Assembly (NCBI GenBank): GCA_046760705.1
Contig: JBHIER010000181.1
Location: 1-6,957, forward strand
Length of the DNA: 6,957 nucleotides
From: JBHIER01 sp046760705 [NCBI: bacterium]
GTDB taxonomy: Bacteria; JBHIER01; G020348925
Direction of reading: 5' to 3'
The position numbers and the translations under genes were made by a program. A model generated the notes under the pieces. That model did not search any database. It had not been told where the DNA came from and worked only from the letters and a program-made list of their open reading frames with translations. Below are positions 324 through 6,957 of the stretch, one piece after another; positions within the stretch are counted from its first letter, which is position 1; each line of letters begins with the position of its first letter.

Positions 324-733
324 CTAGGTCAAAGGATGGTCGTAGGAGTCAAGGAAGGGGTCCACCAATGCTCGGGCCATCCGAGTCGTCGTCGCTGACT
401 CGCCAGGGCATCATCAGAGATCGGCAGCCGCTCGCACGCTGCTTTCATCGCTGGATCATGCCTGAGCTCATCACAATCGTTGGCATCCTCGTCCTCACAG
501 GCAATCTGAAAGACCCGTTGCCGCACCAGATCCTCATACGGATGGTTTCCATAACTCTGATGACGCCCATCCCTGAGCACCCTCACCAAACGCCTGATTA
601 CGCCAACGACCACCTTCACCTTGCGAAGAGACAAGACACCTGCATCGCTGGTCAGGGAGGTGAGGCGTCGGGGCAAATGACCCAATTTGTCCCTCAAGGC
701 GATGATCTGATGAAACTTCTTACAGAAGATCAA
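324..733 (-). pseudogene. IS1380-family transposase, N-terminal remnant with deletion and frameshift
   Basis: On the minus strand, a TTG at 733, 5 bases after GGAGG, opens a reading frame with family-typical segments in order: LTSDAGVLSLRKV, RRLVRVLRDGRHQS, HPYEDLVRQRVFQIA and EDANDCDELRHDPAMKAAC, then LASQ. IS1380 transposases carry this N-terminal block, including the near-invariant ANDxDxLRxDP signature. After LASQ (about 400) the frame is lost. The offset frame resumes with TTTRMARALVDPFLDSYDHPLT, the block that should lie some 10 residues further on, so about 30 bases plus the frame have been lost. That frame ends at a TAG at 324-326. Only about 130 of the usual 430-450 residues remain. 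The catalytic DDE core is absent, so the fragment cannot transpose. The next gene fragment, another transposase on the same strand, begins immediately beyond. Family assignment is by recognised motifs only. Confidence 0.85.
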
Positions 734-921: not shown

Positions 922-975
922 GGTTCTTGAACTTGGGTCTCTGGAGATAAACCACAGTTTATGGAAAGGGGGGGC

Positions 976-1629
976 ATGAGTGAAATGTCAACATTCTCTC
1001 ATGAAAATGGGCTGACCTCGCCCATTCAGCCAAAGAGTACTGAGGGGAATTCACCACAGGTTGGGAAAGAAAGCAAAGAGATCTCAAGTAATCAATCGTC
1101 ATTTTCCACCAATTCCCAAACCCGCTATGATTTGCAGATTCTCCGATCATTGCGCCGGATTATCCGGGCTATTGATATCCACTCTCGGAAACTGAAATCC
1201 GAATACGAACTCACCGCTCCCCAGTTGATTTGTTTGCTTGAAGTAGTCGAAAATAGTCCTCTGAGCGCATCAAAAATTGCTCAGAATGTCCATTTGAGCC
1301 CCAGCACCATTGTTGGAATATTGGACCGTCTGGAGAAGAAGGGGCTTATACAGCGGACACGGAACGTTAAAGATCGTCGACTGGTCGATGTGACAGCGAC
1401 TGAAAACGGACGCCAGTTAGCAGGACACGCACCTTCTCCGCTTCAGGATGGCTTGGCGAGTGCGTTGAAGAGGCTTACCGAATTAGAGCAAGCAACTATT
1501 GCACTCTCTCTGGAACGAATCGTTGAGCTCATGGAGGCGAGGGAGATCGATGCGGCTCCAATTTTGGAGACAGGTCAGCTTGACCAAGACATAACGAGTA
1601 ATAATCCGTCTGCCGCGGGAGTCGAATAG
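976..1629 (+). CDS. MarR-family winged-helix transcriptional regulator with long N-terminal tail
   Basis: This is a DNA-binding regulator, probably dimeric, and most likely controls the operon it heads. From the ATG at 976 it has 217 residues. Residues 1 to about 48 are polar and rich in Ser, Asn, Gln and Lys, and look disordered. The fold proper starts near TRYDLQILRSLRRI. The winged helix spans about 79-145: LTAPQLICLLEV, LSASKIAQNVHLS, the recognition helix SPSTIVGILDRLEKKGLI, and the wing RTRNVKDRRLVDVTAT with the family's DRR motif. A C-terminal dimerisation helix follows, with a polar tail after about 185. MarR proteins are usually near 140-160 residues, so both ends are extended. An ATG at 961 is in frame but lacks a ribosome site. 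The G-rich tract at 968-974 sits just before 976, although its distance better suits the ATG at 985. The next gene starts 3 bases after the stop. MarR-type EctR proteins control ectoine operons in other bacteria, a precedent for an osmolyte role. The ligand is unknown. Confidence 0.92.
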   Translation: MSEMSTFSHENGLTSPIQPKSTEGNSPQVGKESKEISSNQSSFSTNSQTRYDLQILRSLRRIIRAIDIHSRKLKSEYELTAPQLICLLEVVENSPLSASKIAQNVHLSPSTIVGILDRLEKKGLIQRTRNVKDRRLVDVTATENGRQLAGHAPSPLQDGLASALKRLTELEQATIALSLERIVELMEAREIDAAPILETGQLDQDITSNNPSAAGVE

Positions 1630-1632
1630 ACC

Positions 1633-3357
1633 ATGTGCGGGATTGCAGGAATCGTAAGTTCAACCTATCGGGAGTTGGGTCCCCTTTTGAAGGAGATGCT
1701 TCAGACTATGGAGCATCGAGGTCCCGATGGCGCAGGTTATGTCATCGGAAAGTCCTGCGAGCGGGCTGCAAAGTTGGAATCGCTAAATTTTCGCGGGAAG
1801 AAAGGGTACATTGCTCTCGGCCATGTGAGACTCGCCATTACGGGTGAACGTGCTGGTTTGCAGCCTTTTCAATCAGATGATAGTAAGTTGAGTCTTTTGC
1901 ATAACGGGGAAATTTATAACTATTATGACTTATTGAAGGAACTGAATGGCAAAACTTCATTGTCCACGGGAAGTGACAGTGAAGTCCTTTTCCGTCTCAT
2001 CGAGACGGAATATAAGGGGGATTTGACCAAAGCTGTGGAAGAGGTGTTTCCGAAGCTTGATGGTGTCTATGCCCTGGCAATAACAGATCAAGAGAAAACG
2101 ATTATTGCCCGCGATAAGATTGGCGTTCGTCAACTTTACTATTATAGGACCAGTGATTTTGTTGCTTTTGCCTCAGAAAAGAAAGCCCTCTTAGCCCTTG
2201 GAGGTGACGGCGCTGATATTCGTCGTCTTCCACCTGGACACATAATGATGCTTCGTCCAGATAGTTTCCGACTTCAGCCTTTTTGGACTCCAGATCAACT
2301 TCGGGCGAAAGAGCATATTGCAGACCCACAAGAGGCAATGGAAGCTTATGACCTGGTGATCAGGGAAGCTGTTCGTAAACGGGTTGACGGTAAAGACCAT
2401 GTTGGGATCATTTTTTCAGGCGGTGTCGATAGTTGCATGATTGCTTACTTAGTGAAACATTTGGGGGTTCCCTTCACCTGTTACACGGCGGGCAGAGAAG
2501 AAGGGGCCACTGATGTTGAGTGGGCTCATCGTTCTGCGGACAAATTTGGATTTCCCCTTCAAGTAAAGACGCTGTCAATAGATGAAATCAAGCATTTGAT
2601 TCCTGAAGTTATCAGGACCATTGAGGACTACAGCTTAAATCAAGTTGAAGTGGCTATCCCGATATATGCATCCGCCCGGATGGCCCACGAGGCGGGAGAG
2701 CGGGTCATCTTGACAGGCCAGGGGGCAGATGAGTTGTTTGGAGGCTACCCATGGTATGCCACGATTGTAGACCGAGAGGGGTATGATATTTTCGACAGGC
2801 GGTCCTGGGAGGATACATTTCTCTTGTACAAGGAATGTCTTGAACGTGAGGACAAAATCGCTATGGCCCATTCGATGGAACTCAGGGTACCTTTCCTTGA
2901 CTCAGAAGTCATCCGAGTGGCATTTCAGATTGCTCCGGAGTTGAAGATCCAGCGTGGTGGTGACTCATTGGGAAAACGAATTCATCGCGCATATTGCTCG
3001 TTTGGCATGACTGATGAGATCGCATTCCGACCAAAAGAGGCAGCCCAGCACGGCGCGAACGTGCACGATGCCTTTGAAGAGATCGCAGAAAGCCACGGTC
3101 TCACAGCCTCACTCTTGGAAGACGTTGGCTATGATCCGGAGAAAACTGTCCAAGAGAAGCTCGGAAGCTCTTCGCGGTACGGATATCAATACGGCGCAGA
3201 ACATCTCTGGAAGCCCCTGCCTCATGTGCAGTATTACCTTGATTCTCATGCGGTGCGACTTGGATTGCTCCCACGGCTCCCTCACTACTACTGGGATAAG
3301 ACCAGACGGAAGCTTGCAGACCGTGGGATACAGCTTTTGCAGGGAGGAGTACAGTGA
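1633..3357 (+). CDS. asnB: AsnB-like glutamine-dependent amidotransferase (asparagine synthetase family)
   Basis: Cytosolic two-domain enzyme: an N-terminal class II glutaminase releases ammonia, and a C-terminal ATP-pyrophosphatase domain activates a carboxylate as acyl-AMP and amidates it. All key glutaminase parts are visible in 574 residues: nucleophile Cys2 in MCGIAGIV, HRGPDG (28-33), R66 in GHVRLAIT, NGEIYN (91-96) and D115 in SDSE. The synthetase half has the PP-loop SGGVDS (262-267), TGQGADELFGGY (361-372), MELRVPFLD (415-423) and K468 in FRPKEAAQHG, the position of the catalytic lysine. Length fits AsnB (about 550-640). At 363 it has Gln where E. coli AsnB has Glu (GEGSDE); archaeal-type homologues share this Gln, so it does not by itself prove a new substrate. 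The start follows marR by 3 bases, with only a distant GGGAG (1617-1621). The stop overlaps the mpgS start by 4 bases. The family is certain. The substrate is not: aspartate is the default, but a solute carboxylate such as that of mannosylglycerate is suggested by the neighbours. Confidence 0.9.
   Translation: MCGIAGIVSSTYRELGPLLKEMLQTMEHRGPDGAGYVIGKSCERAAKLESLNFRGKKGYIALGHVRLAITGERAGLQPFQSDDSKLSLLHNGEIYNYYDLLKELNGKTSLSTGSDSEVLFRLIETEYKGDLTKAVEEVFPKLDGVYALAITDQEKTIIARDKIGVRQLYYYRTSDFVAFASEKKALLALGGDGADIRRLPPGHIMMLRPDSFRLQPFWTPDQLRAKEHIADPQEAMEAYDLVIREAVRKRVDGKDHVGIIFSGGVDSCMIAYLVKHLGVPFTCYTAGREEGATDVEWAHRSADKFGFPLQVKTLSIDEIKHLIPEVIRTIEDYSLNQVEVAIPIYASARMAHEAGERVILTGQGADELFGGYPWYATIVDREGYDIFDRRSWEDTFLLYKECLEREDKIAMAHSMELRVPFLDSEVIRVAFQIAPELKIQRGGDSLGKRIHRAYCSFGMTDEIAFRPKEAAQHGANVHDAFEEIAESHGLTASLLEDVGYDPEKTVQEKLGSSSRYGYQYGAEHLWKPLPHVQYYLDSHAVRLGLLPRLPHYYWDKTRRKLADRGIQLLQGGVQ
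3343..3349 (+). promoter_or_regulatory. Strong ribosome binding site setting the GTG start of mpgS
   Basis: GGAGGAG ends 4 bases before a GTG at 3354-3356. The GTG overlaps the TGA of the asnB-like gene (3355-3357), giving a GTGA junction. The resulting N-terminus, MRIELPKNVERFG, matches the beginning typical of mannosyl-3-phosphoglycerate synthases, which supports this non-ATG start. Confidence 0.85.
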
Positions 3358-4565
3358 GAATCGAACTGCCAAAAAACGTTGAGCGGTTTGGTGGGATCCG
3401 TTTCGGCGATTTGCAGAAGGTGTTTGAGTTGGATTCCGGGATGGATAATGGGCCATTACCGGCACCGACAAATGCTATCCAGCGTATTCCATATCAGGAA
3501 ATGAACAAAGTGTATCGAGAGATGGCTGTGGTCGTCCCCATTCGCAGTGAGCGCCTCAAGCTGGTCGAAGGGGTCTTATGCGGTATCCCCCACCCGTGTT
3601 TGATCATAATTGTTTCTAACAGCCCTCTGACTCCAGTCGACCGGTTCAATATGGAACAAGATGCGTTACGTGATTTTTGTATGTTTGCTGGAAAGAAGGC
3701 CCTTATCGCTCACCAGAAAGATTCCATTCTCGCCGAGGCGTTCAAGAACGCCGGTTACACAGCCATTCTGGATAAGGACGGAGTGGTTCGGGATGGAAAG
3801 GCGGAAGGGATGCTTATTGCTACGATGCTGGCCCATCTTGCCGGCAAAAAATATATCGGTTTCGTGGACGCCGACAACTACTTCCCAGGTTCGGTTGAAG
3901 AATATATACGAGAATACGCTGCGGGATTTATCATCGGTCGGTCTCCATATGTAATGGTTCGGATTGCGTGGCAGAGTAAACCGAAGATAGTCGAATCCAA
4001 ACTCTTCTTCCGTAAGTGGGGGCGGACTTCTGCCAGGACGAATGCATTACTTAACGGCCTCATTAGCCATTATACTGGATTCGAAACGGAGATTATCAAA
4101 ACGGGGAATGCCGGGGAGCACGCATTGACTATGGATCTGGCCTTGAATTTGGACTATTCCGCCGGCTATTCAATTGAACCGTATCACATCATCAATATCC
4201 TTGAAAAATTCGGCGGTATCCTTGAATCTCCTCTACCTGAAGTCATGAAAGAGACAGTCGAAATCTATCAGATCGAGTCTCGCAATCCACATCTGCATGA
4301 GGCGGGGGACAAGGAGCATATTGATCAAATGCGATACCTCGCCATGCAGGTTATCTACCATTCGCCCATTTGCCCAGAGCCGGTGAAAAAGGAGATTGCC
4401 CGTGAGGCGGTGACTCGAAAGTATGTCAATCAGGAAGAGCTTCCTGCGCGGCCCCACTATTTTCCTGCATTATCCTGTATCGATCCCGACGCTTTTCTCA
4501 AAGACATTGCCGCAGCACCGTATGCTAAGTTAATAAAAGACGGAATAGGTCAGGAAAGCCGATGA
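3354..4565 (+). CDS. mpgS: Mannosyl-3-phosphoglycerate synthase (GT55)
   Basis: Cytosolic glycosyltransferase of family GT55 (EC 2.4.1.217). It transfers mannose from GDP-mannose to 3-phosphoglycerate, giving mannosyl-3-phosphoglycerate, the committed step to the compatible solute mannosylglycerate. The 403 residues span the family's full length (about 390-430). Recognisable blocks are the N-terminus RIELPKNVERFG, VVVPIRSERLKLVEGVL (58-74) at the nucleotide-sugar fold, GKAEGM (148-153), the metal/donor motif DADNYFPG (172-179, DxD at D172/D174), TGFETE and GNAGEHALTMDLAL (241-265), and IESRNPHLHE (307-316). These agree closely with the Thermus-type enzyme as I remember it. No lesion is seen. 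The gene overlaps the upstream and downstream genes by 4 bases each (GTGA and ATGA), so translation is coupled to both. The usual partner, mpgP, sits two genes downstream but is broken here. Glucosyl-3-phosphoglycerate synthase is a different family and is less likely. Confidence 0.97.
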   Translation: MRIELPKNVERFGGIRFGDLQKVFELDSGMDNGPLPAPTNAIQRIPYQEMNKVYREMAVVVPIRSERLKLVEGVLCGIPHPCLIIIVSNSPLTPVDRFNMEQDALRDFCMFAGKKALIAHQKDSILAEAFKNAGYTAILDKDGVVRDGKAEGMLIATMLAHLAGKKYIGFVDADNYFPGSVEEYIREYAAGFIIGRSPYVMVRIAWQSKPKIVESKLFFRKWGRTSARTNALLNGLISHYTGFETEIIKTGNAGEHALTMDLALNLDYSAGYSIEPYHIINILEKFGGILESPLPEVMKETVEIYQIESRNPHLHEAGDKEHIDQMRYLAMQVIYHSPICPEPVKKEIAREAVTRKYVNQEELPARPHYFPALSCIDPDAFLKDIAAAPYAKLIKDGIGQESR

Positions 4566-6196
4566 CTCTTTTGGATTGGGTAGTTATTGCTGTTTATTTC
4601 TCCGCTATCGTCATCTTTGCGATTGTGCGAAGCCGTTCACAATATGACGTACATGATTACTATCTTGCCGGCCGAAGAACCCGATGGTGGCAGTCGGGAG
4701 TATCAACGATGGCTACTCAATTGGGCGCTATCAGTTTCGTTTCTGCACCGGCTTTTGTTGCCCTCAAGGAGGGCGGCGGTCTGAAATGGCTCTGCTATGA
4801 GTTTGGTGTCCCATTGGGGATTCTCCTGGTGATGATGCTCATCCTGCCCACTTTGCATCGAGGTGGCTACATCAGCATCTACGAGTATCTCGAACAACGA
4901 TTCGACCGGTCTACACGAACCTTAGTGAGCATCCTATTTCAGGTTGGTCGGGGATTGGCCACGGCGGTATCGGTGCTTGCCGGTGGATTGATTCTTTCAA
5001 CCGCCTTGCCTTTGACGACCACCGAAGCAATCATTCTCATTGGCGCGGTTACGATCGTTTATGATGTCCTTGGTGGTATCCGAGTTGTCATCTTGAGCGA
5101 TGTTTTTCAAATGTTGATTATTATGCTCGGCATTGCAATCTGTGGGGCAGCAGCATTGTGGCTGGTAGGATGGGACGCAGCCTGGCACATGTTAAGTCCG
5201 GATCGACTTAAGATTCTGGACTTCAAGCACTGGGGATTTACACCGGAAGGGGAGTATGCCTTTTGGCCTATGGCGCTCGGAGGGATTTTTCTCTACGCCT
5301 CCTATTACGGGTGCGATCAGAGCCAGGTCCAGCGGGAACTGTCTGTTGGGAGCGTCCGGGAAGTCAGAAAGTCCTTACTTGTGAACGCTTTTGGCCGTTT
5401 CCCTGTTGTTCTCTCATATTGTTTAATGGGTGTAGCTGTGGGGGCGATATTTGTCTCTCCGGACTTTCTCGGTCAGGTGGCTTCCAAACTTCACACTGAT
5501 CCGACAGCTGTTGCGGAGACATTGCGACACAATCCCGATCGTATGGTCCCAATGTTTGTTCTCAGCTTCCTGCCCCCTGGAATTGTTGGACTCATTTTCG
5601 TCGCCGTACTTTCTGCATTGATGTCGAGTCTGGACTCGGCCATTAACTCGTTGAGTGCTGTCACCATGCAGGACTTCTATCGAGTCTACATAAAACCACT
5701 TGCTACCGAACGACACTATTTAATTGTCTCAAAAATCCTGACCTTTTTCTGGGGAGTCTTTTGTGCGAGTGCAGCTCTTGTCTTTATCCATGCAGGGGAA
5801 GCGACCCGACAAACGACCATTGTCCTGATCAACGCAGTAGGGAGTCTGCTTTACGGTCCGATCTTAGCGGCCTTCATCCTTGGCATGCTCACCCGGAGCA
5901 TTACATCATTGTATATGAAGGTGGGTGTTCTATCCGGAATAGCCGCAAATGTGGCCTTGTGGCAGTTGACCGAGGTGTCTTGGCTGTGGTGGAACCTCGC
6001 CGGCTTTGGAACGTCGGTCGCGGTAGCTAGCCTGCTTTCCATTTTGTGCGTACCCCGAGTGGTCAGGATGTTTCAAGCCAGACGCCTACAACCGGGACAG
6101 AGTCTTCCTGAGAATTGGAAGGCTTCCTACGTATCAGTTATTACATACTTCTTTCTAATCATTTTAGTTGCATACGTCATACAGACGGTGACGTAA
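4562..6196 (+). CDS. Sodium:solute symporter (SSS/SSF family)
   Basis: Inner-membrane transporter with the LeuT fold, using the Na+ gradient to import a solute. The 544 residues contain about 13 hydrophobic segments, beginning with WVVIAVYFSAIVIFAIV (6-22). Family landmarks are DYYLAGRRTRWW (32-43), GVSTMATQLGAISFVSAPA (46-64), YDVLGGIRVVILSDVFQ (167-183), the loop DQSQVQREL (252-260) and MSSLDSAINSLSAVTMQDFY (354-373). This last segment is where the family places Na+-coordinating Ser residues. The last helix ends near 541. The substrate cannot be read from sequence; SSS members carry proline, sugars, pantothenate, iodide or carboxylates. The ATG overlaps the mpgS stop in an ATGA junction, with AGGA at 4553-4556. 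Placement inside an mpgS operon suggests uptake of an osmolyte or precursor, or a role in sodium-linked stress; this is inference. No terminator is visible after it, and the mpgP remnant starts 34 bases later. Confidence 0.94.
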   Translation: MTLLDWVVIAVYFSAIVIFAIVRSRSQYDVHDYYLAGRRTRWWQSGVSTMATQLGAISFVSAPAFVALKEGGGLKWLCYEFGVPLGILLVMMLILPTLHRGGYISIYEYLEQRFDRSTRTLVSILFQVGRGLATAVSVLAGGLILSTALPLTTTEAIILIGAVTIVYDVLGGIRVVILSDVFQMLIIMLGIAICGAAALWLVGWDAAWHMLSPDRLKILDFKHWGFTPEGEYAFWPMALGGIFLYASYYGCDQSQVQRELSVGSVREVRKSLLVNAFGRFPVVLSYCLMGVAVGAIFVSPDFLGQVASKLHTDPTAVAETLRHNPDRMVPMFVLSFLPPGIVGLIFVAVLSALMSSLDSAINSLSAVTMQDFYRVYIKPLATERHYLIVSKILTFFWGVFCASAALVFIHAGEATRQTTIVLINAVGSLLYGPILAAFILGMLTRSITSLYMKVGVLSGIAANVALWQLTEVSWLWWNLAGFGTSVAVASLLSILCVPRVVRMFQARRLQPGQSLPENWKASYVSVITYFFLIILVAYVIQTVT

Positions 6197-6230: not shown

Positions 6231-6788
6231 ATGATAATTTTTACCGACTTGGACGGAACACTTCTTGATAGACAAGCGTACTCGTATCGGGAGGCTGAGC
6301 CGGCACTTGATTTGATTAAAAAAAGAGACATACCTCTTATTTTTTGCTCTGCCAAGACAAGAGCTCAACAAGAGGTGTACAGAAAAGAGTTGGACTTTCA
6401 TGGTCGATTTATTGTTGAGGACGGAGGTGCAGTTTTTGTGGGAATGATTATTTCCCTTTTCAGTTCAAACACGATAGACCCATTGACGACTATCACGTCA
6501 TCGAAATCGTCTCAGGGGGGCCGATTCTATGCGGTAATGGGTTCAAATGACAAGGGCAAAGCGGTTTCTCTACTTACTGATCTGTATCGCAAACAGCATG
6601 GTGTGATTTGGACAGTCGGTATAGGTGATAGCGAGAATGATGCTCCCCTTCTTGCTGCAGTTGACCTCCCCGTACTCGTCCAAAAGCCAAATGCGACGTG
6701 AGAAAACATTTACATTCCCAGGCTTCGACCCGTTGAGGGGATCGGCCCTGTCGGATGGAATTGCTTTGTTCTTGACTTGTTATCCTAA
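6231..6788 (+). pseudogene. mpgP: Mannosyl-3-phosphoglycerate phosphatase, decayed (frameshift, internal deletion, nonsense)
   Basis: The intact enzyme (HAD family IIB, about 245-275 residues) removes phosphate from mannosyl-3-phosphoglycerate. Here the HAD core is still readable: TDLDGT (5-10, nucleophile D6, acid/base D8), FCSAKT (38-43), then IVEDGGAVFV. At about 6441 one base is missing, and the frame offset by one carries the expected NDYFPFQFKHDRP and DDYHVIEIVSG. At the G run 6515-6520 the text jumps to GGRFYAVMGSNDKGKAV in the original frame, so roughly 80 codons of the cap domain are gone. GDSENDAPLL and PVLVQKPNAT follow, and then a TGA at 6699-6701. Beyond it the same frame still reads ENIYIPRL, GIGPVGWN and VLDLLS to a TAA at 6786-6788. 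The TGA therefore probably replaced a Trp TGG. A 156-residue product could be translated from 6231, but with no cap domain and no C-terminus it should be inactive. Gene identity is sure from the combination of HAD motifs, YHVIE and GIGPVGWN beside mpgS. Confidence 0.9.
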
Positions 6789-6826
6789 GTAAAATCAGTG
6801 ACCTATCTTTCAAAGCAGAATCAGTT

Positions 6827-6833
6827 AGGAGGT
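6827..6833 (+). promoter_or_regulatory. Ribosome binding site before the FKBP-like fragment
   Basis: AGGAGGT lies 9 bases before an ATG at 6843, which gives a prolyl-isomerase N-terminus. A nearer ATG at 6836 is in another frame and gives no recognisable protein, so 6843 is preferred. The site indicates that the gene was once, or still is, translated. Confidence 0.6.
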
Positions 6834-6842
6834 ATATGCACA

Positions 6843-6957
6843 ATGGAAACTGTGCAAAACGGTTCTGTTGTTCTCTTCGATTATGTGGGTAAATTGGACA
6901 CCGTGAAGTTTTTGATACGTCATTGAAAAATGAAACTCAGAAGACAAACCTATATAT
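6843..6957 (+). pseudogene. FKBP-type peptidyl-prolyl isomerase, N-terminus, frameshifted and cut by window edge
   Basis: The ATG at 6843 begins METVQNGSVVLFDYVGKLD, matching the first beta strands of FKBP/SlyD-type isomerases (the common form is NGxxVxxxYxGKLxDGxVFDTS). After codon 19 (about 6900-6903) the frame is wrong and stops at a TGA at 6924-6926. The frame offset by one missing base continues as REVFDTSLKNETQKTNLY to the end of the window, restoring the family's VFDTS motif. The fragment is therefore a FKBP-fold protein folding catalyst with a one-base deletion, either a real pseudogene or a sequencing error. The stretch ending NLY resembles the longer SlyD-like archaeal-type FKBPs, which have an insertion after the VFDTS motif. 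The rest lies outside the window. It is probably unrelated to solute synthesis. Confidence 0.72.

Follow-up and report, generated by a model that had tools for sequence, protein, structure and literature searches.

Rhodothermus marinus accumulates mannosylglycerate together with its amide, mannosylglyceramide, and the amide is favoured by NaCl, as stated in PMC1224877 with reference to a 1999 study. In the open-licence literature, as far as its text is available, we found neither a gene for mannosylglycerate amidation nor a paper tying the mannosylglycerate pathway to an asparagine synthetase or amidotransferase, which is weak evidence of absence. The closest described systems are the MpgS/MpgP pathway (mannosyl-3-phosphoglycerate synthase and phosphatase), which yields mannosylglycerate, a sugar protective against salt and heat, the asparagine synthetase AsnB of Escherichia coli, and the amidotransferase for the osmolyte N-acetylglutaminylglutamine amide (NAGGN; TIGR03104), whose AsnB-type gene stands beside the osmolyte synthetase gene ngg. 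Here, we analyse a stretch of 6,957 nucleotides from the bacterium JBHIER01 sp046760705 (contig JBHIER010000181.1; hereafter the window), in which an AsnB-type gene lies directly upstream of mpgS. Comparison across genomes makes it probable, in our judgement, that the encoded protein is an ATP- and glutamine-dependent amidotransferase producing mannosylglyceramide from mannosylglycerate or mannosyl-3-phosphoglycerate. A first-pass annotation of the window had proposed just such an amidation of mannosylglycerate or its phosphorylated precursor, and had stated correctly that R. marinus accumulates the amide (PMC1224877); linkage, co-occurrence and a clade of its own now lend the proposal support of a comparative kind.

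The window protein is a class II glutamine amidotransferase of the AsnB type, carrying both PF13537 and PF00733 (Table 1). Both catalytic domains are complete, as the first-pass annotation had thought: Cys2, the glutaminase positions equivalent to Arg49, Asn74, Glu76 and Asp98 of E. coli, the SGGVDS loop and the catalytic Lys468 are all present. An AlphaFold2 model of the protein (mean predicted local distance difference test score 88.1, from a 14-row alignment) has its best PDB match in E. coli AsnB (1ct9), with a Z-score of 36.5 and a root-mean-square deviation of 2.8 Å over 478 residues at 26% sequence identity. The two proteins share the two-domain architecture, the catalytic residues and the fold, and the window protein scores above the TIGR01536 cut-off, but they are only 26–27% identical, and with PRK09431, the model of E. 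coli AsnB, the window protein reaches 264.9 bits against a cut-off of 499. The NAGGN amidotransferase likewise displays the AsnB fold and is encoded beside an osmolyte synthetase; it differs in its clade and in its neighbour, which is ngg and not mpgS. Scoring 181.2 bits with TIGR03104 (cut-off 570.1) and having no ngg beside its gene, the window protein does not belong to that family.

In a 39-row phylogenetic tree, a 19-row clade (100/100) on a long stem unites the window protein with 17 proteins encoded next to mpgS and with a further copy from genome G008. A 52-row tree to which unlinked and Rhodothermus copies were added yields a 34-row clade, again at 100/100. Outside it lie E. coli-type AsnB, the Latilactobacillus protein, the NAGGN amidotransferase, other plasmid AsnB, three Rhodothermales AsnB rows and the included AsnB paralogues of the same genomes. 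Compared in this way with bona fide AsnB and the NAGGN amidotransferase, as the first-pass annotation had advised, the protein does not cluster with ordinary AsnB. Bit scores to the window protein are 303–681 for the full-length mpgS-adjacent proteins versus at most 143 for non-members. The second G008 copy (L093, L122) is on a 3,027-base contig, where the neighbour seen is a HAD phosphatase. In G304, a second AsnB that is nearer to the E. coli type adjoins the clade member (L140:625-2190 and 3028-4746).

The clade is also set apart by its residues, numbered here by E. coli alignment positions counted from Cys1. Gln occupies the position of Thr322 in 34/34 clade rows versus 0/18 other rows, and that of Glu348 in 34/34 versus 4/18, one of the outsiders with this Gln being the Sinorhizobium NAGGN amidotransferase. 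Tyr239, Glu406 and Gln472 occur in all 34 clade rows and in none of the 18 others, and Arg515 in all 34 and in two of the 18. The Thr-Thr-Ile-Arg-Ala (TTIRA) stretch of AsnB, which we take to have a role in aspartate binding, is not matched in the window protein, where its equivalent is Asn-Gln-Val-Glu-Val; in the 20 clade rows covered for it, the Arg of this stretch (position 324) is replaced by Glu (16), Asp (2) or Gly (2). Such changes fit an acceptor other than aspartate, without identifying it. The synthetase site (Ser234, Gly235, Gly236, Asp238, Asp351, Glu352, Tyr357 and Lys449) is preserved in all 34 rows, including those with a decayed glutaminase domain (see below). The 26 other clade rows, among them the window and R. 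marinus proteins, all have Cys1, Arg49, Asn74, Glu76 and Asp98, which argues for ammonia derived from glutamine.

We scanned GTDB species genomes for mpgS with a three-sequence MpgS alignment and, in the best 80 of at least 199 confirmed relatives, searched the surrounding stretch (at most 10 kb on each side, often shorter because contigs end) by tblastn using the window AsnB as the query. A close homologue was found near mpgS in 21 of these 80 loci: one in Verrucomicrobiota (L001), one in Acidobacteriota (L028), ten in Nitrososphaeria (L038, L040, L044-L048, L060, L078, L079) and nine in Chloroflexota (L039, L057, L063, L065, L067, L069, L070, L071, L076), eight of the latter from Dehalococcoidia or Dehalococcoidales. 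Three of the 21 (L047, L063, L071) are truncated by contig ends, and L069 is split over two frames. L042 and L043, which have only a 256-residue generic relative (89–92 bits), were not counted. The adjacency, whose conservation the first-pass annotation had left to be checked, recurs in all four groups and in many gene orders: AsnB-mpgS-symporter-mpgP in L001; symporter-AsnB-mpgS in L028; mpgS-AsnB-mpgP in L039; mpgS, HAD phosphatase and AsnB in L038, L040 and L060; and mpgS, a mannose-1-phosphate guanylyltransferase-like gene, AsnB and mpgP in L065, L067 and L070 (in L065, this nucleotidyltransferase scores 285.8 bits, under the cut-off of 440). AsnB and mpgS are convergent in L057 and L076 and divergent in L079. 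Across 18 linked loci, AsnB and MpgS distances are correlated (r 0.74, 0/2000 permutations, kinship uncorrected).

Co-occurrence was assessed in samples of 200 Nitrososphaeria genomes (AsnB type at 550 bits or more, MpgS at E ≤ 1e-20) and 245 Dehalococcoidia genomes (AsnB type at 594 bits or more, next match 272), using a profile that was made from mpgS-linked AsnB sequences and favours such members. In Nitrososphaeria, the AsnB type is present in 25 genomes and MpgS in 31; 23 have both, two AsnB alone, eight MpgS alone and 167 neither, so that MpgS occurs in 23/25 AsnB-type genomes versus 8/175 others (Fisher p 2.5e-21). For Dehalococcoidia, where 28 genomes have MpgS, the figures are 8/8 versus 20/237 (p 1.1e-8); both tests ignore kinship. 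Pooled, mpgS is found in 31/33 genomes with the AsnB type versus 28/412 without it. Some of these genomes had come up earlier in the mpgS scan (G003, G006, G010 and G020 in Nitrososphaeria; G014, G015 and G017 in Dehalococcoidia), and when they are excluded, MpgS is present in 19/21 and 5/5 AsnB-type genomes, respectively. AsnB and mpgS lie within about 1.7 kb of each other in 15 of the 25 Nitrososphaeria genomes and adjoin in four of the eight Dehalococcoidia genomes. The profile gives 730–808 bits for the eight unlinked Nitrososphaeria genomes and 551–555 for the two without MpgS, the next match scoring 227. In one of the 31 Nitrososphaeria MpgS genomes, G133, MpgS is broken and falls below the TIGR02460 cut-off. 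The trait is rare in Acidobacteriota (396 genomes) and Verrucomicrobiota (387), where only the known G002 and G001 were recovered at E ≤ 1e-100. Eight Nitrososphaeria genomes (G003, G092, G114, G121, G130, G135, G176, G191) have two mpgS genes, one beside AsnB and one elsewhere, and G157 encodes another clade member in a longer frame of 721 residues (L132:7239-9383), whose match to the profile divides after the first 128 positions.

In the two Nitrososphaeria genomes with the AsnB type in which MpgS was not found, G116 and G177, the AsnB gene is flanked by genes for a GpgS-like glycosyltransferase of 238–240 residues and a HAD-IB phosphatase (L137:7707-10742, L138:7078-10115). The best model for both glycosyltransferases is PRK13915, glucosyl-3-phosphoglycerate synthase (160.6 and 181.6 bits, cut-off 262), and PDB entries of this enzyme are also the best matches of the G116 protein. 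The phosphatase is related to one that other Nitrososphaeria encode beside mpgS or AsnB. Taken with these neighbours, the constant theme is a sugar-3-phosphoglycerate synthase, a phosphatase and an AsnB-type amidotransferase, and the proposed amidotransferase clade as a whole is linked to, or co-occurs with, mpgS or a gpgS-like gene. The gene run in G116 and G177 is a possible route to glucosylglyceramide, a compound not named in the literature covered. In the flanks of ten Nitrososphaeria AsnB loci, tblastn detected no MpgP; five of the ten have a HAD-IB, serB-like phosphatase, which is also found near mpgS in L049, L055, L069 and L074. By its position, this protein may be an unrecognised mannosyl-3-phosphoglycerate phosphatase.

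R. marinus is the organism in which the expected product is documented, and a genome matching this species carries a clade member. Among 99 genomes of the Rhodothermus order, the profile matches this genome (G476) and G461 with 475.6 and 470.4 bits, followed by a third match at 223.6. An approximately unbiased test rejects a tree in which the R. marinus protein falls within E. coli-type AsnB (p-AU 1.2e-43, for a grouping chosen after the tree had been seen). Its gene is followed by one for an isochorismatase-family hydrolase (L128:8472-9137) and by one for a sodium:solute symporter resembling that of the window. The nearest NCBIfam models of the hydrolase are a ureidoacrylate-type one (RutB, 113.4 bits) and biuret amidohydrolase (91.1 bits), both far below cut-off. 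Relatives (about 48–64% identical) are encoded near AsnB in L135, L136 and L142, from two other lineages, and, Rhodothermus ones aside, in no other locus among 150; a possible role is that of an amidase reversing the amidation.

The window operon adds an amidotransferase and a symporter to the MpgS/MpgP pathway. Its AsnB and mpgS genes overlap by four bases, and the AsnB gene stands between a regulator and the solute synthase, both as first annotated; "fused", the word used there, does not describe two separate overlapping genes, for which "embedded" is apt. mpgS and the symporter gene also overlap by four bases, and the open reading frame of the MarR-family regulator, for which none of the 80 mpgS loci yielded a homologue at E ≤ 1e-8, stops three bases before the AsnB start. 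The window mpgS is intact and above the TIGR02460 cut-off, its product being 46% identical to PDB chains 2wvk and 2zu7 over the parts that align. The symporter is 59%, 49% and 42% identical to those of L001, L028 and the R. marinus-matching locus, all of which are near AsnB. Unlike the other operon genes, which are open, mpgP is broken: tblastn with the MpgP of L001 and L065 revealed a frame change, about 70 missing residues and a stop codon within the region of homology, reflecting either real decay or sequencing error. The window DNA has no match in the plasmid collection, and MpgS has none in plasmids, phages or viral contigs; AsnB matches 717 plasmid records, every one at less than 60% identity.

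Table 1. Genes of the window and selected genes of other loci.
Feature	Location	Strand	Remarks
IS1380-type transposase fragment	329-733	-	NF033539 64.4 bits (cut-off 180); upstream of operon
MarR-family regulator	961-1629	+	PF01047 57.7 bits; possible local operon regulator
AsnB-type amidotransferase	1633-3357 (574 aa)	+	PF00733 170.8 bits; PF13537 (GATase_7) 103.8 bits; TIGR01536 316.7 bits (cut-off 267.1)
mpgS, mannosyl-3-phosphoglycerate synthase	3354-4565 (403 aa, GTG start)	+	TIGR02460 480.4 bits (cut-off 351.2)
Sodium:solute symporter (SSF)	4562-6196	+	PF00474 135.8 bits
mpgP remnant (mannosyl-3-phosphoglycerate phosphatase)	6231-6957	+	Open reading frame 6231-6701, TIGR02461 148.9 bits (cut-off 244.35)
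HAD-IB, serB-like phosphatase	L038:11222-11947		Beside mpgS or AsnB
HAD-IB, serB-like phosphatase	L060:7528-8190		Beside mpgS or AsnB
HAD-IB, serB-like phosphatase	L079:5628-6281		Beside mpgS or AsnB
Candidate amidotransferase, R. marinus-matching chromosome	2,761,153-2,762,817	complement	Clade member

In the mechanism that we propose, MpgS would supply mannosyl-3-phosphoglycerate, from which MpgP or an unrelated HAD-IB phosphatase would remove the phosphate. The N-terminal domain of the AsnB-type enzyme would hydrolyse glutamine and pass ammonia to the C-terminal domain, where the glycerate carboxylate would be converted to an acyl-adenylate and then to the neutral amide mannosylglyceramide. 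The carboxylate could be that of mannosylglycerate or, before dephosphorylation, that of mannosyl-3-phosphoglycerate. By analogy with AsnB, the overall reaction would be mannosylglycerate (or mannosyl-3-phosphoglycerate) + glutamine + ATP → amide + glutamate + AMP + PPi. In some genomes, the symporter may transport the amide, and the isochorismatase-type hydrolase may turn it back into the acid. While gene identities, linkage, co-occurrence, the separate clade and the altered residues are matters of observation, the acceptor and the reaction are inferred, and so are the functions that we assign to the phosphatase, symporter and hydrolase by position and family.

That the gene encodes an ordinary asparagine synthetase which merely neighbours mpgS would agree with the TIGR01536 score and with the R. 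marinus-matching genome, where this copy is the only AsnB-like match at E ≤ 1e-20, AsnA is lacking and AsnRS is present, so that asparagine synthesis by it is possible. It is hard to square with the recurrent adjacency and co-occurrence, with the separate clade, and with the 175 of 200 sampled Nitrososphaeria genomes that do without this AsnB type. In 13 genomes (12 with this AsnB, plus G022), GatB is present in all, AsnA in none and AsnRS above cut-off in 11; the Dehalococcoidia G014 and G017 lack AsnRS above cut-off and have GatB, which points to Asn-tRNA formation by transamidation and hence to no need of free asparagine for translation. G022, a metagenome-assembled genome titled "Rhodothermus sp.", has mpgS and AsnRS and neither this AsnB nor AsnA, suggesting that the genus can do without this AsnB, although the incompleteness of that assembly calls for caution. 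Several relatives carry other AsnB-family proteins. We regard an ordinary synthetase as very improbable and rejected housekeeping as the main function on the grounds of clade, repeated adjacency and co-occurrence; repeated linkage and co-occurrence also led us to reject chance adjacency. Still less credible is a protein that supplies ammonia or senses glutamine, coupling solute synthesis to nitrogen status with no amidation of the solute: a class II glutaminase domain would suit this role, but all 34 rows keep the synthetase site, those with a decayed glutaminase included.

The mannosylglyceramide proposal itself has several observations weighing against it. The stretch covered around 59 of the 80 mpgS loci, including loci of Bacteroidota, Opitutales relatives, Chloroflexota and Nitrososphaeria, holds no close AsnB homologue, and the 28 MpgS genomes without this AsnB in the two class samples add to this. 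Where AsnB is present, 8/25 Nitrososphaeria and 4/8 Dehalococcoidia genomes have it well away from mpgS or on a different contig. The R. marinus copy, besides being the sole AsnB-like match of its genome, forms the first, long branch of the clade and is unlinked to mpgS (2,761,375 versus 561,636, about 1.1 Mb on the circle). The "Rhodothermus sp." metagenome-assembled genome (L004/G022) has mpgS and mpgP and lacks this AsnB. Finally, the glutaminase domain is decayed in eight Dehalococcoidia-type rows (L039, L057, L070, L076, L141-L144), with Cys1 in 2/8, Arg49 in 0/8 and Asp98 in 0/8, which suggests ammonia or another amine as the nitrogen donor of these copies. Beta-lactam synthetase, whose glutaminase domain is similarly decayed, employs an amine group present in the substrate itself. 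An enzyme of the mannosylglycerate pathway might thus join the carboxylate to another amine, or amidate a further-modified sugar glycerate, the solute then not being mannosylglyceramide, and the pairing of AsnB with a GpgS-like enzyme in two genomes may be read in the same way. We consider this unlikely, given the full set of glutaminase residues in the 26 other clade rows and the simple amide being a documented natural solute (PMC1224877).

The synthesis of mannosylglyceramide by the clade thus remains our preferred reading. It provides a candidate gene for this step in R. marinus and, with it, a homologous family whose members current models label as asparagine synthase. Whether these belong to a widespread, unrecognised branch of uncharged sugar glyceramides in ammonia-oxidising archaea, Dehalococcoidia, some Acidobacteriota and Verrucomicrobiota, and Rhodothermus is, to us, an evenly balanced question. 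Such a branch would have its own amidotransferase family and an alternative phosphatase; some genomes would add an amidase and a sodium symporter, through which the charge would become reversible with salinity, and in two Nitrososphaeria the sugar would be glucose in place of mannose, giving glucosylglyceramide. Ammonia-oxidising archaea and other genomes have been read as makers of anionic mannosylglycerate (e.g., PMC4084955 and PMC7554672, in the available text of which "mannosylglycerate" occurs though "asparagine" does not). If the proposal is true, these genomes may make a neutral solute instead, which would change the view of their potassium balance and salt response, and the enzymes would offer a means of making a protein stabiliser.

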